Of a stretch of 64,000 nt of DNA, positions 13,255-58,250 are shown piece after piece. Within the stretch, counting starts at the first letter, position 1, and each line of letters opens with the position of its first letter. The stretch lies in assembly GCA_928724745.1 (NCBI GenBank), contig CAKMXJ010000015.1, forward strand, positions 597,208 to 661,207, given 5' to 3'. Made by a program: the position numbers and the translations under genes. This stretch comes from Anthracocystis setariae. Its lineage: Eukaryota > Basidiomycota > Ustilaginomycetes > Ustilaginales > Ustilaginaceae. The notes below the pieces were generated by a model. The model had not been told where the DNA came from. It searched no databases and saw only the letters and a list, made by a program, of their open reading frames with translations.

Positions 13255-13285
<31 letters not shown>

Positions 13286-17619: not shown

Positions 17620-17651
<32 letters not shown>

Positions 17652-20136: not shown

Positions 20137-20186
<50 letters not shown>

Positions 20187-25017: not shown

Positions 25018-25053
<36 letters not shown>

Positions 25054-29569: not shown

Positions 29570-29714
29570 GATAGGCGTAGTACGAAAACGGCGTAACCTT
29601 TGTTTGTCTGAGATTCTACACTGAGGACTGGAGACGGCGGTCAGGAATGACGGCTTTGAATGGGAAGGTGGCAGCAAAATCTTGCCACGACCAGCTGAGC
29701 GGTCCAACAGCTGT

Positions 29715-37428: not shown

Positions 37429-38505
37429 CTAGCAGTGGATTCCAGAGGGCGCGTTTTCGCATGTGGTAGTCTGCTGTCCACCTGTCATCGAAACATCCGA
37501 CCATCTCCAATCAGTGCACGATCCTGAACCACAAAGCACATAGACCGGCGTGGCGTTAGGCAGCACCGAACCTTGGATCCCGCTCAACGTGACATTGGAG
37601 ATCTCGACTCCATTCGTCGGCTGTCCCGTTGGACCCCCATTCAAGTAATCTTGTTGAACGTCGATCCCATACTTGGAGATGCCGGACATGTGGATGTTCG
37701 AATAGGTAATGTTGCTCACTGTGCCTGTTGCGCCCGATACCGTCTTGATTCGAATCGCGTTCAAGCTATCGACTACCTCGATGTTTTTGATCACCACGCC
37801 GCTCACGATGTTGTCTTTGCGCCTGCCAACGCTGCCAATCGACAGTCCGTGTCCTCCAGAGCAGTAGCTGTTCGCGAAGACAACGTCCGTACCCGAGTTG
37901 ATGGCGATGCAGTCATCCTGGTTGTGCACATTGGCGTTATAAATGTAGACCCCTGTCGAGGATCCTACATCGAACGCATCCGTGTTGTGGGCCCCCTTTG
38001 TGCCCCCTTCGGAGTTATCCATGGTCAAGTTGTCGATCGTGAGGTCATTGCAGCCATTGATACTGAATGCCTGCACAGGCGTGTTCTTGACGCTAAGGTT
38101 TCTGATCAAGCTGTTCTGAAGCTTGTGCGCCGCAAAGAACTTTGGCTTAGAAATACCCCCGTTGCCCCCCTGGCCATCCCACCATTGAGCACCTCCGCCA
38201 TCGATTACTGAGTCGGCAGTCCCCAAGACCTCAATGTTGTCGCCGGACACAGAGATTAGTGGCCCTTTCCATGCCTCGAAACCGAAGGTCGTCGTTCCTG
38301 AAAATACCACCTTGGTTCCGGTGTTGAGGTTGGTCAGATCTAGAGTCTCGCCTGCCGGAACCTTGATGTTGGACAAAGTGATCGTGCTGCACGAATTCTT
38401 GCCATCTTGAACGCTTGCAACATCAGTGAATGTGCAACTAGACCCAACTGCACCTACGGTCGCGTGGGCCACCACGAAGCTCGCGAGCAGGACTAATCGA
38501 ATCAT
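37429..38505 (-). CDS. secreted endopolygalacturonase (GH28)
   Basis: Extracellular pectinase hydrolysing alpha-1,4 bonds in polygalacturonan, a plant cell-wall-degrading enzyme. 358 aa, single exon; start at the first ATG (38505), which gives a clean signal peptide MIRLVLLASFVVAHATVGAV. The right-handed beta-helix shows all GH28 catalytic blocks in order: HNTDAFDV (NTD), NQDDCIAI (DD), GGHGLSIGSVG (GHG) and IRIKT (RIK). Cysteines include the C-terminal CGSGSCTDW and TTCENAPSGIHC pairs typical of fungal endo-enzymes, and the sequence has a few N-glycosylation sequons (NLS, NLT, NIT, NVT, NAT). Smuts carry few pectinases, so this is a likely pathogenesis-associated gene. Endo rather than exo action is inferred from length and the DQ.D/GHG context. 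Confidence 0.93.
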   Translation of the reverse strand: MIRLVLLASFVVAHATVGAVGSSCTFTDVASVQDGKNSCSTITLSNIKVPAGETLDLTNLNTGTKVVFSGTTTFGFEAWKGPLISVSGDNIEVLGTADSVIDGGGAQWWDGQGGNGGISKPKFFAAHKLQNSLIRNLSVKNTPVQAFSINGCNDLTIDNLTMDNSEGGTKGAHNTDAFDVGSSTGVYIYNANVHNQDDCIAINSGTDVVFANSYCSGGHGLSIGSVGRRKDNIVSGVVIKNIEVVDSLNAIRIKTVSGATGTVSNITYSNIHMSGISKYGIDVQQDYLNGGPTGQPTNGVEISNVTLSGIQGSVLPNATPVYVLCGSGSCTDWRWSDVSMTGGQQTTTCENAPSGIHC

Positions 38506-40295
38506 GTTGTCAAGGAGAGCAGATGTCCGTGTGATAGTTAGGGCTGGAGGATGTCTATGGACACTTTGACCCACCGCAGCATCTCTTCCTCTTCTTTTGG
38601 TTCTTATATGTCACCGAGACAATGTCGCGATGACACCTCAATACAAAGACTCAGTGCCCGAGACGCTCGAAGTCAGCGGTGCTAGCTAGATGGCTTCACA
38701 CAAGCTCTGGAACGTCACTACCATGCCTGTCGGAATACCGATCTCCACGGTGAGAGGCAACAGTCGCACGCAATCGATGCGAGTACCTGATCCGGGCTGC
38801 GTGTGGATAGGTTGAATCCGAGCCATGAGGTTTCATGTACCTCTTCTGCATCGAACTCATGACTGCAGGGTTCGGAACAGTCGAGGACTGCGAGAACGTG
38901 TACTTGCCATCGTATCACCCTGCCCACACCGAGAGCTGACCAGGTCAGGAAAGCACTTCGGTGGGCGACGGCTACTCGGACAGACACAAACATCAAATTT
39001 GCAAGGTGCAGAGTTTGCCGGATTCCTGCAACCTGATCTGATACCCCGGTCGCGGAGCCCAGGCCATTTTCATCGAGCATAGGGCTGGTCAAATGCTGCA
39101 TGCGATCTAGAATTCAGTGTTGCTACCTTAGTGTTGCTGACTTCGATAGGAACCCTGATGGATCATGCCATCTCGTCAAAAGAGAACTCAATCGCCGCTG
39201 TAATCGGATCGCGAGTCGCGGTTCAGGGTTCAGACATATCTTGTTAGAAATATCAATACGCCGACTTTTCTTTCTCGGTCGACAATAGCGTCGGCCGGAC
39301 TTTCAATCGCGTCATGTTAAGCAATTCCAGTTTCTGGGTTGCGTCACATGAGAAAGTTTTTCGTTCTAGTTTTTCACTCCCAAAAGTATCCCTATAGCGT
39401 AGCCTCGACAGTATAAATGACCACCCAGGTCTTCTTGTCTTGTAGAATAGTCTCCTCATCCACAAATATACTCAAGACTGCGTCGAGGTCGCCACATCTT
39501 TTTGACAATTGTGCGAGTACTTCGACTCGACTACTGCCCCGAACAAAAAGGATAATTAATTCTTTTATATCTGTCTAAGAGTCAGCCGACGGCAATCTTA
39601 TTATAAAAAGGAGCTGCCCGCAAGCAGATCCCGGCTACAACGGTGAAGCCGCAGCGAACCTTGCCACGCTCTCATCGGTCTGCCAGTCTTCTCAGCAATC
39701 AAACGTGAGGAATCGGAATTCACTGACAAGATCATTCATGACGTCTCACACGATTTCTCCAAAAGACCTAAAATTTTGAAGTGCAAGTGGCGTCAGGGAT
39801 GCGATCGCATGGCAGTCTGCCAACTTTCCAGTCCATCCAGGACGATTCGAGATGACTTGGTGGCGGTCGACTCGATAGTGACAACAAGGCGGTTGCCGGT
39901 CTTACGAGCATCGCACGAACCTTCATCCGTCAACCGCACCAACTATCTCTTGTCACCCGAATAGGAGCCGATTTGCGGGCAAAGACGACAACAGAGAGCG
40001 GATGCAGGCATGACCCAACATCTTGGTCAATGTCCAAACAGATTTTACTCGAGAAGTGGGACGGAAGTCGCCGGTCTTGCCGAGCAGCACTCGCGGACCA
40101 AAGAGCACACACTTTTGCGTGCTTCTCCTGCCACAGATATTAGTGCATAAGGCATGAATCGAAGAGCTCTCCTGCTGTTTGCAAAGAGACGGGGTATATT
40201 GCAACAGAAACACATGCCGTCTTACGACATCTACGGAGAACGTGCAGGCCACCAACAGGGAGCAAAATGTAAAAGAGTGAGTGAGATGGGCCGGC
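38506..40295. other. 1.8-kb intergenic region upstream of the polygalacturonase
   Basis: No gene recognised. The segment 39240-39620 is AT-richer, with TAATTAATTC near 39552 and ATATC words. It presumably contains the regulatory region of the polygalacturonase gene (minus strand) and the 3' flank of the TLC gene. Confidence 0.4.
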
Positions 40296-42032
40296 CTACT
40301 CAAAGACTACAAAGTCACGCCGCGCCACCTCCATTCGCCTACGGATTTGACCGACGATGCGTCGTCGACGCCCACCCTGAGCGTCTTGATCTACGGGAAA
40401 TTCGCGGATCTCGTAGTCCTGTCCAAGAAAATCGGCAGGAAGAAATTTGATGAGTGAGCTGAAATCGAGCGATAGGAGGGTCCTGTCGATTCCCGAGGGT
40501 CGGAAATCGCCGGCGCCGGCAATCGCACCGTCAGCAAAAGTGCCATCGTTGAGCCCATCAGCATTGCGACCGTTGATCGCGGTCCTGACCGCACGCAACA
40601 CTGCACGGCGAACTCGCGAGCGCTGTGCTTGGAGATAGCGACGCGCATGGGATTCCGACCTTGTTGACTGTGCGGTCGTGGAGGAAATCGAATCCGTGTC
40701 AGCTTCTTCGTACTCGTCAGAGGAGGATGAGTCGTCCGTGGCGAAACCCGATAGTCGCGCAGCAGAGCTCAATCCGTGGGGGCGGACGCCAGCTTCCTCC
40801 TCGAATTGCCGTCGCCAGCTGGCAGGCGCACTCAGCCAAACCTTGCGCACTGCATCGGCGACAAGCCGGCGAGCGCGATCGCTAGCTTCGGCAGGCGAAC
40901 GAATAGCTAGAAAAGGCTCTACATCGTTGGGTCCAGCTCCATCAGGCGCCACAGGAGCCGTAAACACCGAGTTGGAATTGATGTATTTGGAGTTCAGGGT
41001 CTTGGTCATGAGAGGGTGATTCATCGCATGGTCTGAATCTTTGCGCTGACCTCTACTTTGTTTGGGCATAAGGAGGTTGACGGGAGGTCGAGCTACAGCT
41101 GCCGCACGGGCAAAGGCTGCATGAACGGGGCCTGTAGCGCCAAAATTGGCGGTGGCGTGTGTGGCACCACCACCGGGTGTCATCGCGGGTGTGTTGACGG
41201 CGCTGCTGGTGTCTGGAGCCGGCAAGCCGTTGAAGAGTTGACCGGTAGCTGAGGCGAGCGATTCCTTCTCCTTGGTAACCTGAGCAGCCTCGAGCTTCCT
41301 CTTGTGGATTCTTCGACGGACACTGCAAATGCATTTGTATCCCCACCAAACGTGCATAGGGTAGGTAGCCATTAGACTGATGGTAGGCCCCCAACTGCCA
41401 TCAACGCCGGGAGCGTTACGGCCGTGCTTGGTTCCGCTACTGAAGAGCAGGGCAAGGTGATAGAATACGCGTGTGGCAAAAAAAGTGACGGTAAACGCCA
41501 TGTTGGAGCGGAGGGGAGGATGGATTGAGGCGACACCCATGATCAGTGTGGGCAGCTCGAAGATAGCTGCAGCTGCTGCGAGGTGCGACCATCCCTTGTG
41601 GACCCAGAAAGAGAACAAGAATGTGTAGGCGATATGGTGAATCCAGCCAGAGGAGAGGTTGATGAGATGGCGATAGTAGATGGAACCGAGGGTCAAGTCT
41701 GACACGAGATACGCTACGAAGAAAGCGGCAAGAGGTTCTGCAACAGTCTTTGTGCGTGGGCGCAGAGAGTGAAGATCAAAACCGCCCAGAACCAGATCGT
41801 ACAAATACGGTAAGCTAGCAACGCACATTACGAAGCTGGCAAGGGTGGTGAGGATCCAGCATCGCTTCTTGAGCATCTCTTTGCTGTCACCCCTTAGCCA
41901 CGAGAGGGATAGTCCATGGAAAATGGTGTGTTGAACGACGAGGGATGCGTAAAAGATATAAAGGAGTCGAGACGAGGCCAAGGCGGAGCCCTCGGGCAAG
42001 ACAAAGCGATCCGAGAACACGAACTGCGACAT
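40296..42032 (-). CDS. TLC-domain multi-spanning membrane protein
   Basis: Integral membrane protein of the TRAM-LAG-CLN8 fold, 578 aa, single exon. Residues ~20-240 hold about six hydrophobic helices: YIFYASLVVQHTIFHG, CWILTTLASFVMCVASLPYL, PLAAFFVAYLVSDLTLGSIYY, then the TLC hallmark GWIHHIAYTFLFSFWVHKGW, ELPTLIMGVASI and NMAFTVTFFATRVFYHLALLF. This arrangement resembles TLCD4/TMEM56-type proteins more than ceramide synthases, since the Lag1 motif is not evident. The rest (~340 residues) is a hydrophilic, Ser/Asp-rich C-terminal extension with an acidic run (DDSSSSDEYEEADTDS). Function unknown; lipid sensing or transfer is a family-level guess. The extension is open in frame and shows host-like codon use, so it is probably real. 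Confidence 0.82.
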   Translation of the reverse strand: MSQFVFSDRFVLPEGSALASSRLLYIFYASLVVQHTIFHGLSLSWLRGDSKEMLKKRCWILTTLASFVMCVASLPYLYDLVLGGFDLHSLRPRTKTVAEPLAAFFVAYLVSDLTLGSIYYRHLINLSSGWIHHIAYTFLFSFWVHKGWSHLAAAAAIFELPTLIMGVASIHPPLRSNMAFTVTFFATRVFYHLALLFSSGTKHGRNAPGVDGSWGPTISLMATYPMHVWWGYKCICSVRRRIHKRKLEAAQVTKEKESLASATGQLFNGLPAPDTSSAVNTPAMTPGGGATHATANFGATGPVHAAFARAAAVARPPVNLLMPKQSRGQRKDSDHAMNHPLMTKTLNSKYINSNSVFTAPVAPDGAGPNDVEPFLAIRSPAEASDRARRLVADAVRKVWLSAPASWRRQFEEEAGVRPHGLSSAARLSGFATDDSSSSDEYEEADTDSISSTTAQSTRSESHARRYLQAQRSRVRRAVLRAVRTAINGRNADGLNDGTFADGAIAGAGDFRPSGIDRTLLSLDFSSLIKFLPADFLGQDYEIREFPVDQDAQGGRRRRIVGQIRRRMEVARRDFVVFE

Positions 42033-43016
42033 TGCGGCTTGTCGATGCAGGCTGAGTTGATCGTGTGAAACTGTCGAGGTGTGGCGGCCGTAAAAATCTT
42101 GGACGAAAGCCTGCGAGGCGCGAGGCCCTATCTGATCACGAAAAAGTTGGCCGCTTGCGAACTGTACGAGGGTATATGGGTGGGAGTCTGAGGATATCTA
42201 AGGTGGAGGAGGTGTGTGGTGATCACAGTGGCGTTGAGAGAGGAAGCTGTCAACTGTCAAGGCCAGGTTGTGGGAGTCGAGGACAAAACACTGTGGCCTG
42301 GAGGAACAGAATTTGGATGCGAAATCTGTGTCAAGTGTCAAGCGCGAATGCGAACGTGGACAGGTGTGAGCGTGTGTGTGTGTCTCAATCCATGCCGGCA
42401 CTCGGCGTTACGTCGGGCAAGCGCCAGCAACAAAAGGATGCCACCCTACAGCTTAAATTTTCCAGCCATTTTCCCCCTCTCCACAATAACAAAGGCGGCA
42501 CGGCGTCAGTCACGTCGCTCTCAACGGGCTACTGTATCTGTATTAGTGGCACGTTCTCAGGGTCCAATGCGTCATGCCCTCTTTCTTGCCTTGCTGTTCT
42601 TTGAGGAATTTGCACGCTTGGTCAATGAATCGGTACCTCGATCTCTTCCATGTCTTCCAACCCTTTTTGAGTACTGGTGATCAGATCAGGCTGGTGGAAT
42701 TACGTTGGCTGACAATACCAGGCAGCGGCAGAGCTCCAATCCCTTCATGCAGATACAGCAATGGCTTGGTTGCACACCGGATCCATCAGTGTCAAAGCAA
42801 CTTGGTTCCTGTATCTCGGACCAGCAGGCTCGGGTCATGTGAGTATCAGAGAAATAGCTCAAACATTAGCACAGTCACGCGAGGAACGCAGCCCTGGAAT
42901 GGGTGCCGGCGCGGTCACAAAACAAGACGATGGGATCAGAGCAAAGGATGATGGTATTTCGTCGGAGATATAAGTCCAAGCAAGGCAAGTTTCAATTTTT
43001 CTTTTTCGACGTACGG
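42033..43016. other. intergenic region between TLC gene 5' end and ALDH 3' end
   Basis: About 980 bp; both neighbouring genes lie on the minus strand. Contains the TLC promoter, with GTGAGCGTGTGTGTGTGTC near 42366. No gene seen. Confidence 0.4.
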
Positions 43017-44510
43017 CTAGAGCGGGGCAGGGACGCTGAGGTTGACGTGGACCGCCTTGACATTGGTGTAGTTGGCAAGAGCGTACTCGCCAAGCTCTCG
43101 GCCAATACCAGAAGCCTTGTAACCGCCGAAAGGAACCTGAGGGTTGAGCTGGTTGTAGTTGTTGACCCAAACGGTGCCGGCCTTGAGCTTGTGTGCGGTC
43201 TCGAGCGCACGGCTAATATCGCGGCTGAAGACCGCAGCAGCAAGGCCGTACATCGAGTCGTTGGCGATGCGGATGAGGTCCTTCTCGTCCTTGAATTTGG
43301 TAACAACAACGACGGGGCCAAAGATCTCCTCCTTGGCAATCTTGGCATCGTGGGGCACGTCGGTGAAGATGGTGGGCTCGATGAAGTAACCCTCGTCGCC
43401 CTTGCGGACACCGCCAAGGTGGAGGTTGCCGTCCTTCTTACCGGACTCGATGTACTCCATGATACGGTCGTATTGGAGCTGAGACACCTGAGGACCTTGG
43501 AAGGTGTTGGCGGCGAAGGGGTCACCAACCGGGAGCGCCTTGCAGTGGGCGGTCATCTTCTCCATGAAGGCGTCATAAATGTCCTCCTCGACGTAGATAC
43601 GCGAACCGGCACAGCAGCACTGACCGTGGTTGAACATGATGCCGAAGGCAGACCACTTGACAGCCTGGTCGAGGTCGGCGTCCTTGAAGATGATGTTGGG
43701 CGACTTGCCGCCGAGCTCGAGGGTGACCTTCTTGAGGTTGGTCGAGGCAGCAGCCTTCATGATGTTGCGGCCGACAAGCGTGGAACCGGTGAAGGCGACC
43801 TTGTCAATGTCCATGTGCTGCGAGATGGCGGCACCGGCGACGGGACCGAAACCAGAGATGACGTTGACGACACCAGGAGGGAAGCCAGCCTCAACAATGA
43901 GTTCGCACATCTTGATGGCGGAGAGAGGAGTTTGCTCGGCGGTCTTGAGTACGATGGTGTTACCGGTGGCAAGCGCGGGTCCAAGCTTCCAGGCAAACAT
44001 GAGCAGAGGGAAGTTCCAAGGAATGATCTGACCACAAACACCGATAGGCTCGTGTCGAGTGTAGTTGAGACGCTTGTTGTCGACTTCGATGACCTTTCCG
44101 TGGTTCTTGTCAGCCCAACCACCGTAGTAACGGAGGTTGGCGGCAACAGCAGCAACGTCGAAACCCTTGGCAATGGAGAAAGCCTTACCGTTGTCGAGCG
44201 ACTCGATGGCAGCAAGTTCGTCAATGTTCTTCTCGACAAGGTCGGCGAGCTTCATGAGCAGCTTGCCACGAGCATCACCGGGAGTGTTTTCACCCCAGAC
44301 GGTCTCGAAGGCGTGACGTGCAGCCTTGACGGCAGCGTCGACATCCTTGGCGGAAGCCTCGGCGACTTGGCCGATCTCCTTACCAGTCGAAGGGTTGATG
44401 GTGGCAAAAGTCTTTCCGTCGAGAGCAGGAACAAACTTGTTGTTAATGAACAGGTCCGCCTGAACGGTGGACTTGATGCCGTTAGGGAGGTCAAGCTGAA
44501 GAGTCGGCAT
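43017..44510 (-). CDS. NAD(P)+-dependent aldehyde dehydrogenase (ALDH1/2 class; Iad1-like candidate)
   Basis: Oxidises aldehydes to acids in the cytosol. 497 aa, single exon, full-length class 1/2 ALDH: VCGQIIPWNFPLLMFAWKLG, the Rossmann loop FTGSTLVGRNIM, the general-base motif LELGGKSPNIIF, catalytic cysteine in NHGQCCCAGSRIYVEE (Cys-Cys-Cys), KEEIFGPVVVV, and the C-terminal FGGYKASGIGRELGEYAL. There is no mitochondrial presequence. In U. maydis a protein of this type and length is known as an indole-3-acetaldehyde dehydrogenase (Iad1); orthology is plausible but unproved here, as fungal ALDHs have several close paralogues. It is strongly codon-biased, suggesting high expression. A 538-codon open frame lies on the opposite strand and is treated as a shadow. 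Confidence 0.93.
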   Translation of the reverse strand: MPTLQLDLPNGIKSTVQADLFINNKFVPALDGKTFATINPSTGKEIGQVAEASAKDVDAAVKAARHAFETVWGENTPGDARGKLLMKLADLVEKNIDELAAIESLDNGKAFSIAKGFDVAAVAANLRYYGGWADKNHGKVIEVDNKRLNYTRHEPIGVCGQIIPWNFPLLMFAWKLGPALATGNTIVLKTAEQTPLSAIKMCELIVEAGFPPGVVNVISGFGPVAGAAISQHMDIDKVAFTGSTLVGRNIMKAAASTNLKKVTLELGGKSPNIIFKDADLDQAVKWSAFGIMFNHGQCCCAGSRIYVEEDIYDAFMEKMTAHCKALPVGDPFAANTFQGPQVSQLQYDRIMEYIESGKKDGNLHLGGVRKGDEGYFIEPTIFTDVPHDAKIAKEEIFGPVVVVTKFKDEKDLIRIANDSMYGLAAAVFSRDISRALETAHKLKAGTVWVNNYNQLNPQVPFGGYKASGIGRELGEYALANYTNVKAVHVNLSVPAPL

Positions 44511-46539
44511 GTTGGATGATCTGGGTCGAGTCGATGGCGGGTGAGGTGAAATGTGATCGATGGAAACAGAACAGGGATCTTCGAACGGAGTCGGGCAGCA
44601 CGTGTGCCTGGACGTAGATTCTCTCAGTTTATATACGGCACAAGCAGAATGCCGCTTTTTGGCGCGCGCGGGGTAAGAAGTTGCTCAACCAGACGGCAGC
44701 GACCGCAGCTCCACGTCTGAATACGGATGGCATCTGACGAGTGAGAGCGAGCGACGAAGCGATTGGAGAGAGCCAAATGGGGGGGTTGCGGCAGCTGCTG
44801 CTTGGTCGGCGCGGTCGGGCCAAAAGTCAGCGACGCGTGGAATGTCGGTCAAGAGCCGCATTATAATATGTGGAGTGCTCGAAACAAAAAAAAAAAAAAA
44901 AAAGGAAGGTGGGCGACTGCCTGGCTTCACACAAAGCAGAAGAGCAGAAGCCGTGGCAGCAGTGGCGGCGGGCACTTCCGCCAAGCTCATCCCCACTCGC
45001 TGTTCTTCCTGACCGACTATACAGTACAGGACAGTAGTCTGACTGGCTGACGCGGAAACACAACACACCGAAACGAACGGGCCAACATTATTATGATCGT
45101 TTGCCTTTTGTGGCTGTCGCAGAGACAATTGACTCGACCGTCAGTGCACCGTGCTCGTCGAGGCGGTCCAATTCTCGCCCGCCAACACGGCTTCTCCGAC
45201 CTTGACGGTCATGCGCTCACATCACAACCCCCTTTTGCCATGTCTGTGTCACCGCTGTCATACCAGAGTCGATCCTGACACGCAACTTTTCGCCTTTTCC
45301 TTGCCTTCAGGCTCTGAGCTTTATGGCGCGATCAGGCTACGCTCCCGTTGCTCGAGCTGCTTGTGCCATGCTACTTGCGCACTGAGAGGCACGGCGAGAC
45401 TCCCTCAGTTGCACGTCCAAACCCTTCCCATAGAAATCATGTGTGAGCGCGTGTCTGCCGCAACTTGCAAACCCCGAAAGCCTCTGTCGCGATCCGGCTA
45501 AACATCGCCCCTCCATTGTCGCTGTTTCTTCAGCATGGCTCTCTGTTGCATCTGCGTGCAAGTACATCGCTACAGAACAATGTTGATCGTCTCCACACGC
45601 TTGAATCGACATTTCCCAGTTTCACACAACTTTGCCGGTGAATGAGCATCATGATGATTCCAGCTCGATGCGTAGTCGTGGCCGGTTGTTGGCATGGTCT
45701 TGCGCGCTGCTTCGAGCGCTCTTCATCTGTCTCGTCATCCTCAAGGCTATGCAATTTCAAAACGAACCGTGTTCAGCCAAGTTGCTCCGGCCTTCGCATA
45801 ATTGTAACCGTGGGGTCACGCGGTGTTGACCGCAAGCGATTTTCCCCCACACTAGCCGATGTGCTCGAGCGTGTGCTACTGTATTGTTCTGCCGCCTCGA
45901 AACATAGTCGCGGCCGATCACCACTCAGAACCTCCCAGCTCCAGTTTAGCTTCTCCGCATCTTTGTCCCGCTTCGTATACGGCTATTACAACGCTAGATT
46001 TGCTTCACCTAACCGGCATATGGATCGGATCGGATAGAATTGATGGTATGCGAGAATTGCTTCCAGAGACAAAGAAGCACAATTTGACAATGCCACATCT
46101 TTATTCACATTCCCTTGCGCGGGCATGAATTTGCCGTTCTCGGGCTAATGTCAAGATCACACCTGATGCGAGCTTGCCGTCAACTGAGACTGCCAATGCA
46201 CTGCTTGGCTGCTCGACAGTCCAAACCGGTTCCAAGGCGTGAAAAACAGGCTCGACATGAAAGGCGGCAGCTAGCCGCAATTCACCTTCCCCCGATTGAC
46301 TCTTGTCACTTGTCGGTGCCCTGGTCCCCGCTTGGCTTGTTTCTGCTGTTGCTCTACACGCGCTTTCAGAGTACGCGACGATCAGACAAGCTTAGCACCC
46401 GTTGCAGGTTCCGAGATGCGCTTTAACATGACAGAAAAATTCATTCCAAAGGTGATCTGTGATCCACCGAACAAAAATGGTGGAGCGCTTGGGAAGCTTT
46501 TTTTATGTAAGACGTGTTAGATTCGTGCGTTGTCTGTGC
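44511..46539. other. 2-kb interval between the ALDH gene and the retrotransposon
   Basis: It contains the ALDH promoter (TTTATATACGG near 44628), an A-run at 44886-44902, TATACAGTACAGGACAGTAG around 45019, and no recognisable gene. It marks the transition from the housekeeping block to the mobile-element-rich part of the window. Confidence 0.4.
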
Positions 46540-46544
46540 ACGGG
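46540..46544. repeat. 5-bp target-site duplication, left copy (ACGGG)
   Basis: ACGGG immediately precedes the left LTR and is repeated exactly after the right LTR at 54359-54363, the length typical for Ty1/copia integrases. Confidence 0.92.
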
Positions 46545-47343
46545 TGTAAAATTATAGCAAATGAGAAATGACGGCCTTACGGCAAAGCCAAAAGGGATAA
46601 GTAGTTACTTCTGACTTTTGAGCGTGACTTACGGAAGTAGGCGTCGGGTGATCAACCCCGACGTCGGGTTCTGACAAACTGCGGGTTTGTTAGAATCCCG
46701 GAAGTCTTAGGATTACCGAGCGTTATCTTTGTTGTTATATCAAAGATCCACGTCTGGTTTCGTACGCTCACGTCGTTTCGCAGAGGTTAGGAAGCTCGAA
46801 TGAGAAATACTGTGAGTACTCGACAATTGCTCGACGAGTTGTCGGAGAGAAGGTATGATAAGAGTAAATGGGGAAAAGATTCGATGGAATTCCAAGACCA
46901 TTAACGGGGCATGACAATACGGTGCTTATATACACAACTGACTAGCTCGGATGCTTGTACATGGGAGCTCTTGGTGATTCGTTACAAGAAGTATCACATT
47001 TACGGCGTGGTCTTCTTGCTTCGTTACCAGTGAGCGACTCCGTCGATGAGGGCGTGGTCCCGAGGTCGGATTGAGAGGTTCCGTTGTGGATCTTTGTGAT
47101 ATGCCCGGATATGGTGAACCCGACCTCGGGTTTGGAGTAATGTCTTGCGTCGTGTGTCTCGAACGGTGGGTCTTGGACGCGTGTATGAGTTTCCGGCGAA
47201 TTTCCATAACTGCGGTCGTGTTTGTCCGGATCCGGAATAAATCGCTAGTCCGCATGCGGATGGCAGAACCCGACGTCGGGTTCTGGGCCGAAGGGTGAAA
47301 TGCTCTAAGTGTGAGGCGACATGAAGAACCCTAGATTCTAACA
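46545..47343 (-). repeat. 3' LTR of the copia element (799 bp)
   Basis: It begins TGTAAAATTATAGC and ends GATTCTAACA on the plus strand, giving TGT...ACA termini. Compared by eye with 53560-54358 I see no difference, and frames crossing it translate identically in both copies. It carries palindromes at 46657, 47119 (one mismatch) and 47269. Confidence 0.95.
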
Positions 47344-47352
47344 GTCCCCCGC
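47344..47352 (-). other. polypurine tract of the copia element
   Basis: On the minus strand GCGGGGGAC directly abuts the 3' LTR, the expected site of plus-strand DNA priming. The same nine bases lie next to the LTR of the diverged relative at 57563-57571, which supports a functional role. Confidence 0.6.
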
Positions 47353-47423
47353 GCCGAGCACTTCACACACTTCGGGCACACACAACACTAAGTGACAAGG
47401 GAACGTGGAATTTGCAACTGGTC

Positions 47424-48938
47424 TTAAGGACCCGAGACGTTTGAACCAGAAGCGCGAACGAACCTGTTTCGAGGACCAGGGGCTTCGCGCTTATCGACAA
47501 GCTCTTCGGCCTGGCCAAGGAGCTTGATAAAGTAGGAGGGATCCCACCTCTTGGGGGTGGGCTTCCCGGTACGTGATGCTACGATCGCATCAAGGCAAAT
47601 CTCCTTGGCTTCGTTGAGCTTGCCTCGGAGTTCGTCAATTGTGACTATCCTTTTCGTTCTCTTGCCTTCGTATCCAAGTCCACGGCAGGGCTTGGAGATC
47701 ACTACGCAGTGATCGCAAGACCTGCGGTCGGGTTCTCGCTTCTTGCCTGATTGAGTGATTCCGGCGCCGAATGTGCAATGAACTCCGATGAGTTGGCACT
47801 CTTGACATCCGGGGTTTGCGACCACTAAGCCGGGGTGTAGTGGTTGGTCGAGGGAGAGGAAGTGTCGACGCGTGCTTAGCACAACTCCGGCCGGGACAAC
47901 GAATCGCTTCTGCTTGGAGAGAGGTACCCCGGGAGTGATTGGCCCCGACCACGCCAGGTGCGAGGGAAGGGGGTATTCCAAGGATCCGCCACCGGGTTGT
48001 GCTTGGTCGTCTTGATGGTTGACTTCGGCGTTCGCAGCAGCAGTTGCGGCGGCACCAACTACACGGCGACGGGAGGCAGACGTTGACGCCTCGGCGAGCT
48101 CGATTGCCCTAACGGGGTTGGAATGACGAGCGGGGGTGCTTCGTCTCTCTTGCTCGTCGTTGTCTTCCTGGTCGAAGCTTGGGTCCAGCTCGAAGTCCCC
48201 ATCGACGAGGGAATCGTCCAAATACAGAAAGAGGGCTCGCCCGTCGGTGGGTTCACTCTCTCCTGTGGTTGATGCCGCCGGCCTCAGCGTAGGGAGCGGT
48301 CGGCTGCGGAGGCGTAACGGGCGTACGGCCTCATTGTGCTCGGATCGGATTGGTTGGGCGTTGTTTGAGCCAGATGGCTCATTGTCTTGATTTGCCATGT
48401 CTTCGTCGACAGAGGGCTCGGCGTTGGTGAGAGGTGGGCCCTGGCACGTTGGTGGCAGGGGCTGGTCGTCGATTTCCATGGCCTCTTCTTGGCCCTGTGA
48501 GGGGGAGGCGTGAGTGTCGGTTGAGTTTGTTGGAGGGGTATTGTCGTTATCGTTGGCAACGCTGGCGACGGGGTAGGCATTTTCGTTGGCTGTGTTGGCT
48601 GTGTTAGCGGCTCTCCTTCGCCTGGCTTCGCTTGCCTTGGCGAGAGCGTTCTTCTTGGCCTGGGAAAGTCGTTTCCCCATCGTTTCTTGAGGAATGGTGT
48701 CGGTTGTGGTGGTGGTGAGAGAGGTATGAGGGCGGAGAGTGTGAGAGAGCGTACTGAGGGTTCTTTCTTCGATCCGCGCTTCTATCCCAATCCTTTGTTT
48801 GGTAATGCTTTGTTCGTTCTGTTCCGCAGTTGGCGCAGCATGTAGTAAGGGCCAGACGTCGGGTCTTATGACCCGATAGGGAGTATTGTCGGATGCGCCG
48901 CGTTTCATCTCGGTGGATGTGATTGCGCAATGTGACAT
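47424..48938 (-). CDS. accessory retrotransposon gene: acidic protein with Zn2Cys6-like cysteine pattern
   Basis: 504 aa from the first ATG; starts at M11 or M87 (48680, MGKRLSQAKKNALAKASEAR) are equally possible, and the first ATG overlaps a TATA-like word. Not part of a standard copia element. From the N-terminus: a Lys/Arg-rich stretch (~88-110), a low-complexity Asn/Thr/Ser region, an acidic hydrophobic segment LFLYLDDSLVDGDFELDPSF (~236-255) resembling transcriptional activation domains, then cysteines at 378, 381, 388, 408, 411 and 418 spaced CX2CX6CX19CX2CX6C, followed by RGLGYEGKRTKR. This is the spacing of fungal Zn2Cys6 clusters with a long middle loop, but the usual basic residues between Cys2 and Cys3 are missing (QLIGVH). 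All six cysteines persist in a diverged copy at 57.6-58.25 kb. A DNA-binding regulator is an inference. Confidence 0.7.
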   Translation of the reverse strand: MSHCAITSTEMKRGASDNTPYRVIRPDVWPLLHAAPTAEQNEQSITKQRIGIEARIEERTLSTLSHTLRPHTSLTTTTTDTIPQETMGKRLSQAKKNALAKASEARRRRAANTANTANENAYPVASVANDNDNTPPTNSTDTHASPSQGQEEAMEIDDQPLPPTCQGPPLTNAEPSVDEDMANQDNEPSGSNNAQPIRSEHNEAVRPLRLRSRPLPTLRPAASTTGESEPTDGRALFLYLDDSLVDGDFELDPSFDQEDNDEQERRSTPARHSNPVRAIELAEASTSASRRRVVGAAATAAANAEVNHQDDQAQPGGGSLEYPLPSHLAWSGPITPGVPLSKQKRFVVPAGVVLSTRRHFLSLDQPLHPGLVVANPGCQECQLIGVHCTFGAGITQSGKKREPDRRSCDHCVVISKPCRGLGYEGKRTKRIVTIDELRGKLNEAKEICLDAIVASRTGKPTPKRWDPSYFIKLLGQAEELVDKREAPGPRNRFVRASGSNVSGP

Positions 48939-49247
48939 ATAAATGACTGTGGTGTTAGCGGTAATTTATTTGTAATTTTTGTTATCCGGTATCGAATTTT
49001 GAGTTTTTGTGCTGAATATGAAGTCCCGACGTCGGGTTCTATGGTCCAATAGGTATTGCTGTATCTTGGGTTGCATGTTCATGCAGGGTCCAATTATTTT
49101 GTTGGCTTTTATTTTCGGTGTTGGTCTTGTTCGGATATTTTTCGTGTTGTTTTGATGTTTTTCAGGGAAAACGCGTCGGGTCAAATTTGTACATGTACGG
49201 ATCTTGATGATTAATCTGTGGAAAAGGAAATCCGTCGTCGGGTTTTC

Positions 49248-52200
49248 TTAGTTCGTGGGAAGTATGTGAAGGTTCTCGCGGTTGGCTTGAACCTTGTTCT
49301 TTTCCAATGCCTTAGTTAGAATGTCTGCCAGTTGGTTCGTTGTCGAGACTGGCTTTACGATCAGTAATCCTTCTGCTTGGTATGATCGGGTAATGTGATA
49401 CTTGAGGCAAAAATGCTTGGTTTGGTTGTGGAACTTGGGTTCCTTAGCAAGTTCGATGGCCGCGCGGTTATCCACCATGAGTTGTGTCGGGTTCTTGACT
49501 TTTAGGCCGAGTTCTTCGACCAGCCAGCGGCACCATGTGATTTCCTTTGCTGCTTCAGCCATAGCTACATATTCGGCGTATGTTGTAGAGTCCGTGATGA
49601 TGGACTGTAGCTTAGAAATCCAGCTGTATGGCATAGTATTGACCGTGTTGACAATTCCCGACGTTGATCTCAAAGTCAGTGTGTCCCCCGCGTGATCTGC
49701 GTCGGTGAATGTTTGAAGTAGGGACCCGAAATCAAGGTTCATGTCGTGGATTGGAAACCCGACGGCGGGTTTATATTCCAGACCGTGGGTTTCTGTTCCC
49801 TTGAGGTAACGTAACAAGTGCTTCGCCTGAACCATAGCATTGGAATGCGGGTTTGCAAGTTCGCGGCTGAGTCTCTGTACAGCATAACTGATATCAGGTC
49901 TCGTGCATGTCGCAATGTAGAGGATTTGGCCGACGATGCTCCTATACTTGGAATGTTCTGATGAGGAGAGGAGGTCCCCTTCTGCTATGTTGGCACTTGG
50001 GTTGAGCGGAGTGTGTACGATGTTGGCAGATTCGAGCCCGTAAGTCAGAAGGAGTCGTCGGATGTAGCTGGTTTGGGACAAGTGTATGGAGTCCGGCGAT
50101 TGTTTCACTTGAATGCCTAGAATGTAGTCAAGCTGTTCTCCACCCGTCATCTTGAAGTGCTTCCTGAGGTCGTTCATTACGCTTTCGGCGAGGGGTTTAG
50201 AGCGAGCGAAGATGAGTATGTCATCCACGTAGAGTGTGAGGACGAGCGGGTGAGTTTCGGACCCCAACGTCGGGTTTTTGATGTAGAGCGCGGAATCGTG
50301 GTTACTGCGCTTGAAACCCATTCCTCGCAAAGTCGAGTCCGCCTTTTGGTACCAAGTACGACCAGCTTGTTTGAGGCCGTAAAGCGATTTGTTTAACTTG
50401 CAAAGCAGACCCGGGGTGTGAGGATCTGCGTCGGGTTCTCGAGGCGGCGGTCGCATGTATATATCTTTGTCAATTTCGCCATTGAGGTAGGCGGTTTCGA
50501 CATCCATTTGGTAGATAGTCAATCCAATCTGTAGACTTAGGATCATGAGCAGGCGGAGTGTCGCTAGCTTCACAACGGGTGCGAAGGTTTCGTCGTAGTC
50601 TATGCCGTGTTTCTGTGCAAATCCTTGTGCTACCAAGCGAGCTTTGTACTTGTCGATGGTTCCGTCGCTTTTTTGTTTGATCTTGAAGACCCATCGACTT
50701 CCGATGACGTTTGCGTCCTTAGGAGGGGTCACAAGGTTCCAGGTGTTGTTGTCCTTGTGCGACGCAAGTTCTTTGTTCACGGCCTGTTTCCATAATTCCC
50801 AGTCGGGTCTTTGGAAAGCCTGAGTGATTGTTCGTGGTTCGTCGTCGAGTAGCCCGATTGGGTCCGAATCATCCAATCCCGACGTCGGTTTTTCGACCGC
50901 GTCGGTTTCTTCGAGGGCTGCGAGCGCGTCCAGGCGTGGTGAGCCTGGTGGTGAACCAGGTGGAGTCTGGATCCCTGCCGCTCTCTCTTCTGGGGTAAGG
51001 TAGGGCCAACTGTTTGAGTCTTCCGATGTGTTCTGTTGTAGTTCGGCGCTTTGATGATTTGACTGGGGGGGAGTATCGATTTCCTTCGTCATTGTGTTAA
51101 TTCTGGGCGGGTCCGCGAACCCGACGTCGGGTTTCGCAAACCGCACTGAACTTTCGGTATCATGCGAGAAGGGGAAGGTCCCCTCGTCGAATGTTGCGTG
51201 GACCGTTGTTATATATCGATCTTCGGCCACGTTGAATAGCTTGAAGGCCTTCGTCCCTGCAGCGATGCCGACGTAGACACATGCCAGTGCGCGGGGTTCC
51301 AATTTGTCCCTTCTTTCTTCCGGAACGTGTGCCCATGCAGCACATCCGAACGTTCGAGCGAGGGAGAAGTCAGGTGTAATGGAACGCAACAGTTGGGTCG
51401 GGATCTTCATCCCGGCGCCCTTCGTTGGGAATCGGTTATTGAGGTAGACCGCGTGGAGGAAAGCGTCTCCCCACATATGGTATGGTGAGGATGATTGGAT
51501 CATCATACAACGAGCCAGGTCGAACAGGGTGCGATTCATTCGTTCTGCGACCCCGTTCTGTTCTGGCGTGTATGGAGCGGTGTGCTCGTGGATGATCCCA
51601 TTTCCTCGAAGTAGCTCTGCAAGTTCCTTACTCGTGTACTCGCCTCCGTTATCCGACCTGATCCTTTTAATCGACTGGCCGGTTTGCTTCTCCATCATAG
51701 TTTTGTATTCCAAGAAGTGGCCGTACACCTCACTCTTCCTTGTGAGTAGGAAAGCGACGGTGAATCTTGAGAAATCGTCGATGAATGTAACAGCGTAACG
51801 GTGGCCTTGGGGAGTTTCATCAGGCATTGGACCTACGACGTCGGTATGCACAAGTTCCAGGGGTTTTGTGGAACCCGACGTCGTGTTTCGAGAAAACGGC
51901 TGTTTATGCGATTTTCCGATCTGGCATGTCTCACACTTTGCGGGTGTGCGTGGGTTGAGAATTACTTGAGGGACGACCTTCGCAATCTCTTCCAGGCGTG
52001 CTTGACCAGGATGGCCAAGGCGTTTATGCCAGTTCGTGGTGTTGGCCTCGTGTTCGGCCGCCATTCCGGCAAAGTCGGTGCCGACTTGATCGACGTACGT
52101 GAGGGGTCCAATATGGACACCTCTGCATGTGATTCTGCCATCCGTCGTGCGAGCGACTGTCTCGCGATCGTTTGTCACAATTTCCACCTTCTTCCTCATT

Positions 52201-53555
52201 ACTCCTGTGGACAGGAGGTTGACGCCGAAGGATGGTATGTATGCCACGTTCGACAGTGTGATCTTGTTCGTTTTTCCTCGTCCGATATTGACTTCGAGGT
52301 CCACTGTGCCGAGTCCTTCGATTTTGACCGGAACTTCGTTTGCTACCCAGATGGGTCGCATTGACACGCCTAGTTTGAGGTCCCGGAATAGAGTCTTGTT
52401 ACAACAGATGTGTCGACTGGCACCCGAGTCCATTAACCACATTGTTGACCGCGGATGTGTGAACTCACTGGCGGAGTAGACGTTGTCACGCCCGGGTTCA
52501 CCAGTTTTGGCGTTCGGTTGAGAACCCGACGTCGGGTTCTTGGGTTTCGGGCATTTGTTCGCATAGTGCCCCTTTTCTTGACAATTGAAGCAAGTGATCT
52601 TCTCGATTGGCGTTTTCGGCTTCGTCTTGGGGTTTCGCTTCGGGTTTCGTTGACCCTTCCATTTGTTTTCTTGTCCGGCGTAGTATGCCGATGACCCGAC
52701 CCGGGTTCGCTGGTGCATGCCCTGAACGTTGATGCCAAGGCGCAATTCCTCGCTTCGCAGGCGAGTAACGATGTTGTCGAGCTCGACCTTCTCATTAATG
52801 ACGGCACTCTTGACAACCAGGGTCTCGACTTCGTTGTCGCCCCTTCGGACGATCATTTCGCTTGTCTCTCGGCGTGCTCGGTAGATCTCCTCGATTTGTG
52901 CTTGGATGTTATCATATTCCTTGCGGAGACCCTTCATTAGTACGCTGTACTTCTTGTTGAAGCTAATTGTAATGCCTGCCATGGTCAGCTGGTCTGACAG
53001 TTCGGTGATTCGGCTGACGAATCCGTCGATGGTTCGTCTATCTTGCTTGAGACTGTTGAGCTCCGTCTCCATTTCCTTGAGTTGCCATTTCATGGCTTTA
53101 GCGAATCGTTCCTCGAGGGTTTTCCAGATTGTGTGTGCGTCTTCAAGGTCCGCAATAGTGTGTTTAATTTCACTAGAGAGACTGCTTCGTAGCATGCCGC
53201 AAGCGGTAAAGTTGGCGTTAATCCACTCTCCGTGCTTGGGGTCAGAGGCTTCAGGCCGGGGTAGAGTCCCCTTAATGATTCCATAGATTCGAGCACCCTT
53301 TTGCATGAGAATGTCGATGCATTGGTCCTTCCATTGGTAATAGTCGCGTGCCTGTGTCAATTTCGGCAATCCGGGGGAATTATGCGGGACCCCGTCGATG
53401 GATTGCATGATTTCTTTGGTGTATTCGGAACCCGTCGTCGGGTTCGGTAAATTTCTTTCGGTGTTTTCGGGTTCTCCGGTGATCGAATTGACTCGAGAGC
53501 GGGATCGAGTATTCAAGTATATATCATTCGAGTTTCCAGCAGGCTTTGGGCTCAT
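49248..53555 (-). CDS. Gag-Pol polyprotein of the copia element
   Basis: 1435 aa in a single frame with no frameshift between gag and pol. Domains in order: Gag-like helical region (~45-280), CCHC zinc knuckle CFNCQEKGHYANKC (322-335), aspartic protease WLMDSGASRHI (Asp376), integrase with H510/H515/C541/C544 zinc site and the D572, D635 (RSDNGGEY), E671 triad spaced D-D35-E, reverse transcriptase (~945-1190) with YVDD at 1109-1112, RNase H with D1285 (FTDADHAG), E1328-type YAEYVA and VDNRAA. All catalytic residues are present. The ATG lies four bases inside the 5' LTR boundary, within the primer-binding site. CCCGACGTCGGG words in the frame are read as Pro-Asp-Val-Gly or similar (for example AKPDVGFADPP). 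Gag and Pol amounts must be set by processing or splicing, since no stop separates them. Confidence 0.95.
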   Translation of the reverse strand: MSPKPAGNSNDIYLNTRSRSRVNSITGEPENTERNLPNPTTGSEYTKEIMQSIDGVPHNSPGLPKLTQARDYYQWKDQCIDILMQKGARIYGIIKGTLPRPEASDPKHGEWINANFTACGMLRSSLSSEIKHTIADLEDAHTIWKTLEERFAKAMKWQLKEMETELNSLKQDRRTIDGFVSRITELSDQLTMAGITISFNKKYSVLMKGLRKEYDNIQAQIEEIYRARRETSEMIVRRGDNEVETLVVKSAVINEKVELDNIVTRLRSEELRLGINVQGMHQRTRVGSSAYYAGQENKWKGQRNPKRNPKTKPKTPIEKITCFNCQEKGHYANKCPKPKNPTSGSQPNAKTGEPGRDNVYSASEFTHPRSTMWLMDSGASRHICCNKTLFRDLKLGVSMRPIWVANEVPVKIEGLGTVDLEVNIGRGKTNKITLSNVAYIPSFGVNLLSTGVMRKKVEIVTNDRETVARTTDGRITCRGVHIGPLTYVDQVGTDFAGMAAEHEANTTNWHKRLGHPGQARLEEIAKVVPQVILNPRTPAKCETCQIGKSHKQPFSRNTTSGSTKPLELVHTDVVGPMPDETPQGHRYAVTFIDDFSRFTVAFLLTRKSEVYGHFLEYKTMMEKQTGQSIKRIRSDNGGEYTSKELAELLRGNGIIHEHTAPYTPEQNGVAERMNRTLFDLARCMMIQSSSPYHMWGDAFLHAVYLNNRFPTKGAGMKIPTQLLRSITPDFSLARTFGCAAWAHVPEERRDKLEPRALACVYVGIAAGTKAFKLFNVAEDRYITTVHATFDEGTFPFSHDTESSVRFAKPDVGFADPPRINTMTKEIDTPPQSNHQSAELQQNTSEDSNSWPYLTPEERAAGIQTPPGSPPGSPRLDALAALEETDAVEKPTSGLDDSDPIGLLDDEPRTITQAFQRPDWELWKQAVNKELASHKDNNTWNLVTPPKDANVIGSRWVFKIKQKSDGTIDKYKARLVAQGFAQKHGIDYDETFAPVVKLATLRLLMILSLQIGLTIYQMDVETAYLNGEIDKDIYMRPPPREPDADPHTPGLLCKLNKSLYGLKQAGRTWYQKADSTLRGMGFKRSNHDSALYIKNPTLGSETHPLVLTLYVDDILIFARSKPLAESVMNDLRKHFKMTGGEQLDYILGIQVKQSPDSIHLSQTSYIRRLLLTYGLESANIVHTPLNPSANIAEGDLLSSSEHSKYRSIVGQILYIATCTRPDISYAVQRLSRELANPHSNAMVQAKHLLRYLKGTETHGLEYKPAVGFPIHDMNLDFGSLLQTFTDADHAGDTLTLRSTSGIVNTVNTMPYSWISKLQSIITDSTTYAEYVAMAEAAKEITWCRWLVEELGLKVKNPTQLMVDNRAAIELAKEPKFHNQTKHFCLKYHITRSYQAEGLLIVKPVSTTNQLADILTKALEKNKVQANRENLHILPTN

Positions 53556-53559
53556 AACC
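53548..53559 (-). other. primer-binding site, half-tRNA type (initiator tRNA-Met anticodon arm)
   Basis: Directly after the 5' LTR the minus strand reads GGTTATGAGCCC. This is complementary to the anticodon region of initiator tRNA-Met (GGGCTCATAACC), not to a tRNA 3' end. The same arrangement is known from Drosophila copia, which is primed by the cleaved 5' half of initiator tRNA. Its ATG is the start codon of Gag-Pol. Confidence 0.75.
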
Positions 53560-53939
53560 TGTAAAATTATAGCAAATGAGAAATGACGGCCTTACGGCAA
53601 AGCCAAAAGGGATAAGTAGTTACTTCTGACTTTTGAGCGTGACTTACGGAAGTAGGCGTCGGGTGATCAACCCCGACGTCGGGTTCTGACAAACTGCGGG
53701 TTTGTTAGAATCCCGGAAGTCTTAGGATTACCGAGCGTTATCTTTGTTGTTATATCAAAGATCCACGTCTGGTTTCGTACGCTCACGTCGTTTCGCAGAG
53801 GTTAGGAAGCTCGAATGAGAAATACTGTGAGTACTCGACAATTGCTCGACGAGTTGTCGGAGAGAAGGTATGATAAGAGTAAATGGGGAAAAGATTCGAT
53901 GGAATTCCAAGACCATTAACGGGGCATGACAATACGGTG

Positions 53940-53947
53940 CTTATATA
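53940..53947 (-). promoter_or_regulatory. TATA box of the copia 5' LTR
   Basis: TATATAAG on the minus strand, placed about 385 bp from the internal end of the LTR. In the diverged LTR the corresponding word is TACATAAG, an altered box. Confidence 0.55.
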
Positions 53948-54283
53948 CACAACTGACTAGCTCGGATGCTTGTACATGGGAGCTCTTGGTGATTCGTTAC
54001 AAGAAGTATCACATTTACGGCGTGGTCTTCTTGCTTCGTTACCAGTGAGCGACTCCGTCGATGAGGGCGTGGTCCCGAGGTCGGATTGAGAGGTTCCGTT
54101 GTGGATCTTTGTGATATGCCCGGATATGGTGAACCCGACCTCGGGTTTGGAGTAATGTCTTGCGTCGTGTGTCTCGAACGGTGGGTCTTGGACGCGTGTA
54201 TGAGTTTCCGGCGAATTTCCATAACTGCGGTCGTGTTTGTCCGGATCCGGAATAAATCGCTAGTCCGCATGCGGATGGCAGAA

Positions 54284-54295
54284 CCCGACGTCGGG
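54284..54295. promoter_or_regulatory. CCG-ACGT-CGG palindrome upstream of the LTR TATA box
   Basis: A perfect 12-bp palindrome, CCCGACGTCGGG, within AGAACCCGACGTCGGGTTCT. With the near-copy at 54134-54145 it lies 190-340 bp upstream of the TATA box, a typical upstream-activator position. Everted CCG-N4-CGG repeats are known targets of Zn2Cys6 regulators such as yeast Leu3. Binding here is untested. Confidence 0.4.
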
Positions 54296-54358
54296 TTCTG
54301 GGCCGAAGGGTGAAATGCTCTAAGTGTGAGGCGACATGAAGAACCCTAGATTCTAACA

Positions 54359-56776: not shown

Positions 56777-57562
56777 GGTGGGAAATTACGGCCTTACGGC
56801 AAAGTGAAGAGTAAATGGTTAATTATGGCTTTTGAGCGTGACTTACGGAAGTAGGCGTTGGGTGATCAACCCCGATGTTGGGTTCTGACAAACTGCGGGT
56901 TTGTTAGAATTCCGGAAGCCTTAAGTTATCCAAACGTTGTCTTTGTTATTATTCCAAAGACTTCACGTCGGGTTACAGACGTTCACGTTATTTTGCAGAG
57001 GTTAGGAAGCTTGAATGAGGAATATTATGAGTACTCGACAATTACTCGATGAGTTGTTGGAGAGAAGGTATGGTGAGAGTAAATAGGGGAAAGATTCGAT
57101 GTATTCCAAGAGCACTAACGGGTCAAGATGAGGGAGCGCTTATGTACACGTTGAGACTACTAGAGGACGCCTTCCAGCGTCCGTACTAAGCATTCCTTGA
57201 CGAATGCCGCAATGTCCATAGCGTGGTCCTCTTACTCGATTGTATGAGGTTTTCTCACCTTCGTGTGGTGCGTATCTTGGTCGGGTCTGAGCACTTTGGA
57301 TTTTCCTTTTTATGACGCATCCGGAATTATCATAACCCGACCGCGGGTTTTGAGATGATGTTTCGAACCTTTTGTCTTGGACCGAGTGTCTTGATTGCGT
57401 ATGTGGGTTTTGGGTGGTTTTTTGTGAAGAGCATCGTGGTTGTCCAAATCCGGCTGAAGACGCAAGCCCGCACGCAAGTTGCAAAACCCGACGTCGGGTT
57501 TTGTGGCCCGATGGTGAAATGTTCTAAGTGAGAGACGGAATATGGAACTCTGCGTTCCAACA
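56762..57562 (-). repeat. diverged copia LTR (801 bp)
   Basis: TGTGAAAGG...TTCCAACA. It shares long blocks with the intact LTR, such as GAGCGTGACTTACGGAAGTAGG and ACAAACTGCGGGTTTGTTAG. It keeps an exact CCCGACGTCGGG at 57487-57498 although its TATA word has changed to TACATAAG. Confidence 0.85.
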
Positions 57563-57641
57563 GTCCCCCGCGTCGAACACTTCACACACATCAGGCACAG
57601 TCAATTATTTTGCAGCAGGGTAATGGAATTCACAACGGGTC

Positions 57642-58250
57642 TTAAGGACCCAAAGTACTAGAGCTAGACGCTTGGGCGAACCTGTTTCGAGGGCCGGGAG
57701 CCTCGCGTTTCTCAATGAGTTCTTTGACCTGCCCCAGGATTTTGATGAAGAACAAAGGGTCCCACTTCTTCGGGGGTGGCTTCCCTGTTCTCGTGGCTAC
57801 AATTGTGTTAAGGCATACCTCCTTGGCTTCGTCAACTCTGCCTCAGAGTTCCTCAACAAGCATCATTTTCCTGGTTTTCTTACCTTTGTACCCTAGTCCT
57901 CGACATGGCTTTGAGATTACCATGCAATGATCGCAAGACCCGCAGGCGGGGTCTCGCTTCTTCCCTTGGTGATTGACCCCGGCGCCAAAGGAGCAATGTA
58001 CGCCAATGAGCTCACACTCTTGGCAGCCGGGTGTCATGATCACGAGGCCGTGATGAGGAGTTTGGCCCAGCGGAGTAAAGTGCCTTCGTGAGTTCAGCAC
58101 TACTCCCGCTGGGACAACGAAGCGCTTCTGCTTCGATAGTGGAACACCTGGGGTGAGCGCCCCCGACCATGCCAGGTGCGAGGGGAGGGGGTGTTCGATC
58201 GATCCGCCAGCCGGTTGAACTTCATCCGCCTCTGTGTTTGCCTCAGAGGC
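57642..58250 (-). pseudogene. 5'-truncated copy of the accessory Zn2Cys6-like gene with a nonsense codon
   Basis: It is homologous to residues ~300-504 of the intact accessory protein. All six cysteines and their spacing are kept (CQECELIGVHC ... CDHCMVISKPC), as are KQKRFVVPAGVVL and GKPPPKKWDP. A TGA at 57843-57845 replaces the Arg codon of the ELRGK segment, so the last ~65 codons are cut off. The 5' part is missing beyond 58250. The retained C-terminal reading frame shows the C-terminal block is a family feature, not noise. Confidence 0.8.

Follow-up and report, generated by a model that had tools for sequence, protein, structure and literature searches.

Family-specific palindromes along copia retrotransposons of Anthracocystis setariae, a possible self-recognition array with an element-encoded candidate reader

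The window analysed here is a stretch of 64,000 nucleotides from Anthracocystis setariae (assembly GCA_928724745.1, contig CAKMXJ010000015.1, positions 597,208 to 661,207). It contains a copia retrotransposon on the minus strand, through which a short palindrome is scattered. The 5′ long terminal repeat (LTR; 53560..54358) and the 3′ LTR (46545..47343) were both 799 bp long and identical, and the element was flanked on either side by the target duplication ACGGG (5 bp), which indicated that the insertion is young. Between the LTRs lay an intact gag-pol open reading frame (ORF) of 1435 aa (49248..53555), with Retrotran_gag_2, zinc knuckle, rve, RVT_2, and other domains, and an accessory gene of 504 aa (47424..48938), both on the minus strand. 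The rve domain (563–664) preceded RVT_2 (936–1184) within one pol, which is the Ty1/copia order. The accessory protein carried a six-cysteine cluster at residues 378–418 (47685..47807, minus strand). Related elements of the same genome carried palindromes of their own. These formed arrays that were specific for each family, some of their positions in pol were shared across families, and the words were exchanged at those positions between families whose Pol proteins were 65–71% identical.

Seven exact copies of the palindrome CCCGACGTCGGG had been reported in an earlier note on this DNA, and all of them were found again. Each LTR contained two exact sites and one with a single mismatch (46657, 47269, and 47119 in the 3′ LTR; 53672, 54284, and 54134 in the 5′ LTR). 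The pairs 46657/53672 and 47269/54284 were duplicated with the LTRs, so the seven exact copies represented five independent sites, and the one-mismatch copies 47119 and 54134 were likewise one site present in both LTRs. The remaining exact sites, like all internal sites without strand assignment, were in the gap that separates pol from the accessory gene (49025..49036), ahead of the accessory ORF as had been claimed, and within pol, one at alignment column 922 (51120..51131) and one after the zinc knuckle (52525..52536). The near-copies comprised eight one-mismatch forms inside the element. Besides the two in the LTRs, these were found close to the pol start (53431..53442), at pol columns 670 (51874..51885), 1024.67 (50878..50889), 1232.67 (50263..50274), and 1401 (49758..49769), and within the start of the accessory ORF (48852..48863). 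The note had also placed two copies upstream of the LTR TATA box. One exact copy was indeed upstream of a TATA-like box at sense position 412; the second upstream copy had one mismatch, and the other exact copy was downstream. Two further perfect 12-bp palindromes, TCCGGATCCGGA and TCCGCATGCGGA, were present at 47225 and 47249 (also 54240 and 54264), adjoining the LTR site at 47269.

The word was rare elsewhere. No copy with up to two mismatches occurred in positions 1..46656, in agreement with the earlier note, in which none had been noticed before the element. In the whole genome (21.47 Mb, 36 contigs), CCCGACGTCGGG was found 138 times exactly, compared with 4 times for the reversed word, and 321 compared with 56 times when up to one mismatch was allowed. 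The exact copies were concentrated in one family of elements, here called A: eight were in the window and 110 were in 20 fetched family-A regions, which together accounted for 118 of the 138. One of the 20 remaining copies was inspected (L001), and it was inside an open reading frame that showed no similarity to LTRs. The conserved word exceeded the 12-mer and read AACCCGACGTCGGGTT, with the half-sites AACCCGAC and GTCGGGTT. Across 13 sites of the window copy, each with 3–28 aligned stretches, the 16-bp word had a mean divergence among copies of 0.056, compared with 0.105 for the flanks, and the word was less divergent than its flanks at 11 of the 13 sites. Two outcomes that the earlier note had named as refuting its idea, an equal frequency of the motif outside the element and a lack of conservation among copies, were therefore not observed. 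At the site in the accessory gene (element position 6633), the divergence was equal to that of the flank. Fragments lacking pol (L014 and L028) still carried four and five A-type sites.

The accessory protein had at least 76 matches in the genome. Merging reduced them to 61 places, which were divided according to identity to the window protein into A (22 places, about 48–100% by piece), B (8 places, 33–35%), C (14 places, 39–43%), and D (17 places, 34–41%). The fetched regions comprised the 20 of A, two of B (L033 and L036), three of C (L034, L037, and L038), and three of D (L035, L039, and L040). The exact A word was absent from the eight fetched B, C, and D regions. Word counting in three A copies, two B copies, one C copy, and one D copy showed that each group was enriched for its own distinct word: AACACGCAAC/GTTGCGTGTT in B, AACATTCAGT/ACTGAATGTT in C, and, more weakly, TACCGAC/GTCGGTA in D (slash between the halves). 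A palindromic model with a fixed number of sites, seeded from word counting, gave gAACCCGAC/GTCGGGTTc for A, AACACGCAAc/gTTGCGTGTT for B, cAACAtTCagT/ActGAaTGTTg for C, and TAcCGac/gtCGgTA for D; a soft motif fit was unsuccessful on family D. The mean scores of the fitted sites were 27.2 and 27.9 bits in A, 30.5 and 26.6 in B, 28.7 and 28.9 in C, and 18.0 and 18.6 in D. Shuffled elements treated in the same way averaged 10.6–11.1 bits, with maxima of at most 13.1. When the fit was seeded solely from the near-palindromes of each sequence, the scores were 26.1 (A), 29.0 (B), 26.7 (C), and 18.5 (D), and eight 5.4-kb control chunks taken from elsewhere in the window gave 11.5–14.6, with fewer seeds (3–14 vs. 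12–20). With at most one mismatch, the B word was found 80 times in the genome and its reversed form 0 times; the corresponding values for the C word were 66 and 1. The counts in the window and the genome, the reversed words, and the control chunks ruled out chance or base composition as the source of the copies.

Profiles built from the fits were applied with the threshold set at the top score reached in 46.5 kb of host DNA. Counts in the training copies are circular, so the second copy of each family was the actual test, which was limited by the ~97% identity in Pol between the two C copies and likewise between the two D copies. With the A profile, two A copies yielded 14 sites each, and six copies from B, C, and D yielded none. 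The B profile detected 18 and 18 sites in B, five and four in C, and none in A and D. The C profile detected 17 and 18 sites in C, eight and four in B, one and two in A, and none in D, while the D profile detected 14 and 14 in D and a single site in one A copy and in one C copy. At element position 5440 of the B copy L033, a site combined C-like outer halves with a B-like centre (CAACACTCAACGTTGAGTGTTG) and was perhaps intermediate between the B and C words.

The positions of the sites in pol were partly shared. The Pol proteins of A, B, and C formed the group with 65–71% identity, and that of D was 45–47% identical to the others. The centres of the A, B, and C sites coincided to the base at columns 1024.67 and 1232.67 and within one column at 669.67/670.67. 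Families B and C shared 669.67 and 1407.67 exactly, and the A site at column 1401 was about six codons before the latter. Column 922.0 was common to A, D, and, weakly, B. Strong sites coincided within about one column in 4/7 (A–B), 3/7 (A–C), and 4/6 (B–C) cases. Random placement over pol matched this in 0, 1, and 0 of 20,000 trials, respectively, a surprise that is somewhat overstated because the null model lets sites fall outside the tolerant stretches of pol. Under the three shared sites, none of the 18 ungapped protein columns was identical in A, B, and C, compared with 50 of 86 flanking columns and 818 of all 1387 others. There the words were translated into NPTSG (A), HATLRV (B), and HSVLNV (C), close to the residues of the polyprotein at these places.

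Positions were also retained where the surrounding DNA was not. The identity between the B and C LTR-plus-leader sequences was 44.0% (45.5% when aligned pairwise), near the 42.7% of a shuffled pair. Their sites were at 79, 240, 451, 660, and 807 in B and at 79, 216, 451, 665, and 861 in C. Two of the five agreed exactly and three within 5 bp, which occurred in 23 and 229 of 100,000 random trials, or in 12 and 57 of 20,000 when a minimum spacing between random sites was kept. In each of A, B, and C, two or three sites were in or near the region between pol and the accessory gene. The accessory coding regions had few: one besides 48852 in the window copy, none in the B copy L033 and the C copy L034, and none and three in two D copies.

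The accessory proteins diverged faster than Pol. The window protein was 35, 32, and 26% identical to those of B, C, and D, whereas the corresponding values for Pol were 65, 66, and 47%. Six accessory proteins from groups A–D nevertheless shared an invariant C-X2-C-X6-C-X16-19-C-X2-C-X6-C pattern and, directly ahead of the cysteines, the motif RF..PAG (residues 345–351 of the window protein). A search of a protein collection found no relatives of the accessory protein (7995 candidates scored) or of the six aligned homologues (7994); this collection is probably poor in fungal proteins, and the missing relatives tell little because even the homologues from the same genome did not surface in it. 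Three matches to PDB sequences (E 0.88–4.3) were taken as chance, and a piece of the reverse transcriptase (RT) had no relative among viral contigs.

Together, these patterns suggest that the palindromes form an array of DNA sites by which each copia family recognizes its own chromosomal copies, with the accessory protein as the most likely reader; we consider this reading rather probable. That the accessory protein reads the word of its family is itself likely. Each accessory protein probably binds the palindromes of its own family on chromosomal copies, as an activator or an anti-silencing factor. The six-cysteine, zinc-cluster-like protein would bind the two half-sites as a dimer, and the sites in the LTR and ahead of the accessory gene would double as promoter sites for it. 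Occupancy along the element would counter host silencing of the copies. A shift in the specificity of the reader would then lead to the word being rewritten across the whole element, overriding the local protein sequence. The earlier suggestion of a self-recognition system was strengthened by the finding of a separate word in all four accessory groups examined and by the parallel divergence of accessory proteins and words. It is tentatively proposed that binding along the whole element shields the copies from silencing. This proposal draws on an analogy with the VANC proteins, on a layout that covers pol beyond the promoters, and on the host genome, in which three loci encode C5-methyltransferase domains and one Piwi domain is present. 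A plain self-activator of the LTR and accessory promoters is a close alternative, as a variant within the same idea.

The transposon-encoded VANC protein binds a motif specific to its family, and methylation is lost from the copies of its own element (PMC5735166, PMC10398659). The VANDAL elements of Arabidopsis resemble the present system in their fast-evolving element-encoded protein, dense family-specific motif, related families with other motifs, and methylating host (PMC5735166, PMC10398659). Here, too, the motif in an element's own copies differed in related families, clearly for A, B, and C and more weakly for D. However, VANDAL is a DNA transposon, and most of its motifs are in tandem repeats of non-coding DNA and share one orientation (PMC5735166), whereas here the element is an LTR retrotransposon in which the palindromes occur singly at distances of hundreds of bases, many of them in pol at shared positions. 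A VANDAL-like origin from tandem repeats was rejected, as the A word was absent from all direct-repeat families whose units are closely spaced. VANC binds its motif and demethylates; the present proteins are known from sequence, and Pfam detected no VANC-like domain in them. Sireviruses are also copia elements with many palindrome copies, mostly with a CGG-CCG core (PMC2829016). According to the available text of that source, the boxes are in the LTR and, in some elements, also at the beginning of the envelope gene, and no partner protein is mentioned; here the sites extend over the LTR, pol, and the gap, with words that differ among families. Among the listed titles and abstract openings of an open-licence library, we found none that reported palindromes with exchanged words at coding positions that match between families, or that described such a retrotransposon-encoded reader. 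The array is best read as VANC-like recognition that would operate in LTR retrotransposons, with some of its sites inside coding sequence.

Several observations weigh against this reading. The sampling covered two of eight B, three of 14 C, and three of 17 D accessory loci. Family D is a weak case, because its word with up to two mismatches was counted 178 times in the genome compared with 159 for the reversed form; strong sites of A and D coincided in 2/7 cases, little agreement that was equalled in 101 of 20,000 random trials. Only a few A words stood apart from the 16-bp windows of their flanks (sites 70, 220, 1829, and 3234) and several others were not extreme, and the pol sites 3476 and 4091, where the window copy departs from the word, diverged more than their flanks. 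The link between accessory gene and palindromes appears as an association only, and 30 of 81 RT matches, including some A–C copies such as that at C11:5343 in L032, had no accessory match within 4.5 kb. Fold prediction from two window sequences gave a mean pLDDT of 36.8 and was not used. The window protein scored 12.3 bits against Pfam Zn_clus, below the cut-off of 21, and those of B–D scored 8.3 and 9.0 or did not match.

The scores also bear on the Leu3-type Zn2Cys6 assignment in the earlier note, which stood only in part. The fungal Zn2Cys6 regulators such as Leu3 share with the accessory protein the two C-X2-C-X6-C halves that characterize Zn_clus, and their symmetric sites resemble the CCG-N4-CGG of the A word. 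The canonical loop of Zn2Cys6 proteins has about 5–12 residues, whereas here the third and fourth cysteines were separated by 16–19. Of the four words, only those of A and D contained CCG-N4-CGG, and the B and C words had no CGG triplet.

Other explanations of the palindromes were weighed. Transcription or insulator-like proteins of the host may read the sites, with another role for the accessory protein; the LTR and pre-accessory sites are where promoters are expected, and the palindromic, mostly CGG-CCG boxes in the LTRs of plant Sireviruses have been suggested to be read by the host (PMC2829016). However, a single host would need a separate factor for each family, and six to seven strong sites in A and four to six in B and C are within pol, so that this explanation seems unlikely. 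An action in RNA, as hairpins or self-pairing loops for dimerization or packaging, is disfavoured and rather improbable. Every word is self-complementary and able to form a stem with a short loop, and all sites are expected to be included somewhere in the RNA of the element. However, at 33 positions among 22 (A), 26 (B), and 22 (C) distinct sites, a small sample of partly dependent sites, the half-sites matched no more often than independence predicts (lowest permutation values 0.06 in C, 0.08 in A, and 0.11 in B). Halves that vary independently are more readily explained by a DNA-bound protein dimer than by an RNA stem, within the limits of this small test.

The sites might also be landmarks of centromeric or other special chromatin, comparable to the CENP-B box, and HobS is a centromeric copia element of smuts. 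Copies often cluster on a contig (e.g., C36:431-462 kb and C32:641-685 kb), and a centromeric copia element was reported in another fungus (PMC10817607). Words that differ among families are ill-suited to a common landmark, and other copies, including that of the window, are elsewhere; we regard this explanation as improbable. Still harder to credit is a spread of short mobile or template-switched repeats without any reader, even though one word across all sites of a family is what copying predicts. The three sites at matching codons in A, B, and C are not extra insertions, and the words are family-wide despite divergent LTRs. Selection on the peptide, for example at protease sites, would agree with the several pol sites that share a frame and a peptide (NPTSG in A, HATLRV-like in B, and HSVLNV-like in C). 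It was ruled out by frame use and site placement: more than one reading frame was used in A and in B, one site is within the RT domain, and the words also occur in the LTRs and non-coding gaps.

Beyond the element, the window contained an older decayed relative (56779..58100, minus strand) that comprised an LTR and the 3′ part of an accessory gene, with an eighth exact CCCGACGTCGGG copy at 57487 and decayed sites at 56871 and 57336. Two one-mismatch family-B words at 55256 and 55466 (C14:652463, 652673) pointed to a relic of a B-family LTR beside the A element. Arrays of 21–22-bp tandem units were present at 55578–56144 and about 58356–58900, each followed by a related ORF (56156–56776 and 58968–61862, the latter of 964 aa). 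These ORFs started with ITCPVCNYAYAASN.TNHLRKAH, which is zinc-finger-like, and array and ORF together formed a duplicated module near the contig end. Elsewhere, accessory-bearing copia copies of several families were clustered on some contigs, possibly in centromeric or other heterochromatin. The LTR pairs of 13 other copies (detected blocks of 604–889 bp) were identical in six cases and had one to eight differences in seven. Transitions accounted for 21 of the 22 differences among these loci (L013, L017-L019, L021, L023, L024, L026, L033, L034, and L036-L038). This excess is in line with cytosine deamination and with the 91% transitions reported for LTR elements of U. hordei (PMC9603552).

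The evidence for a lineage of copia elements that carries a family-own palindrome at about 14–18 places per element, partly at the same pol codons, and in which a fast-evolving zinc-cluster protein would read the word and switch together with it, appears to us evenly balanced. If the reading as a self-recognition array is true, sequence-specific recognition of own copies, as in the VANDAL DNA transposons of plants, would also have arisen in LTR retrotransposons, and DNA words could be imposed on protein-coding sequence at matching codons of different families. Several natural pairs of protein and word in one genome would then allow tests of how specificity changes jointly in a DNA-binding protein and in its sites, of which there are a dozen or more.

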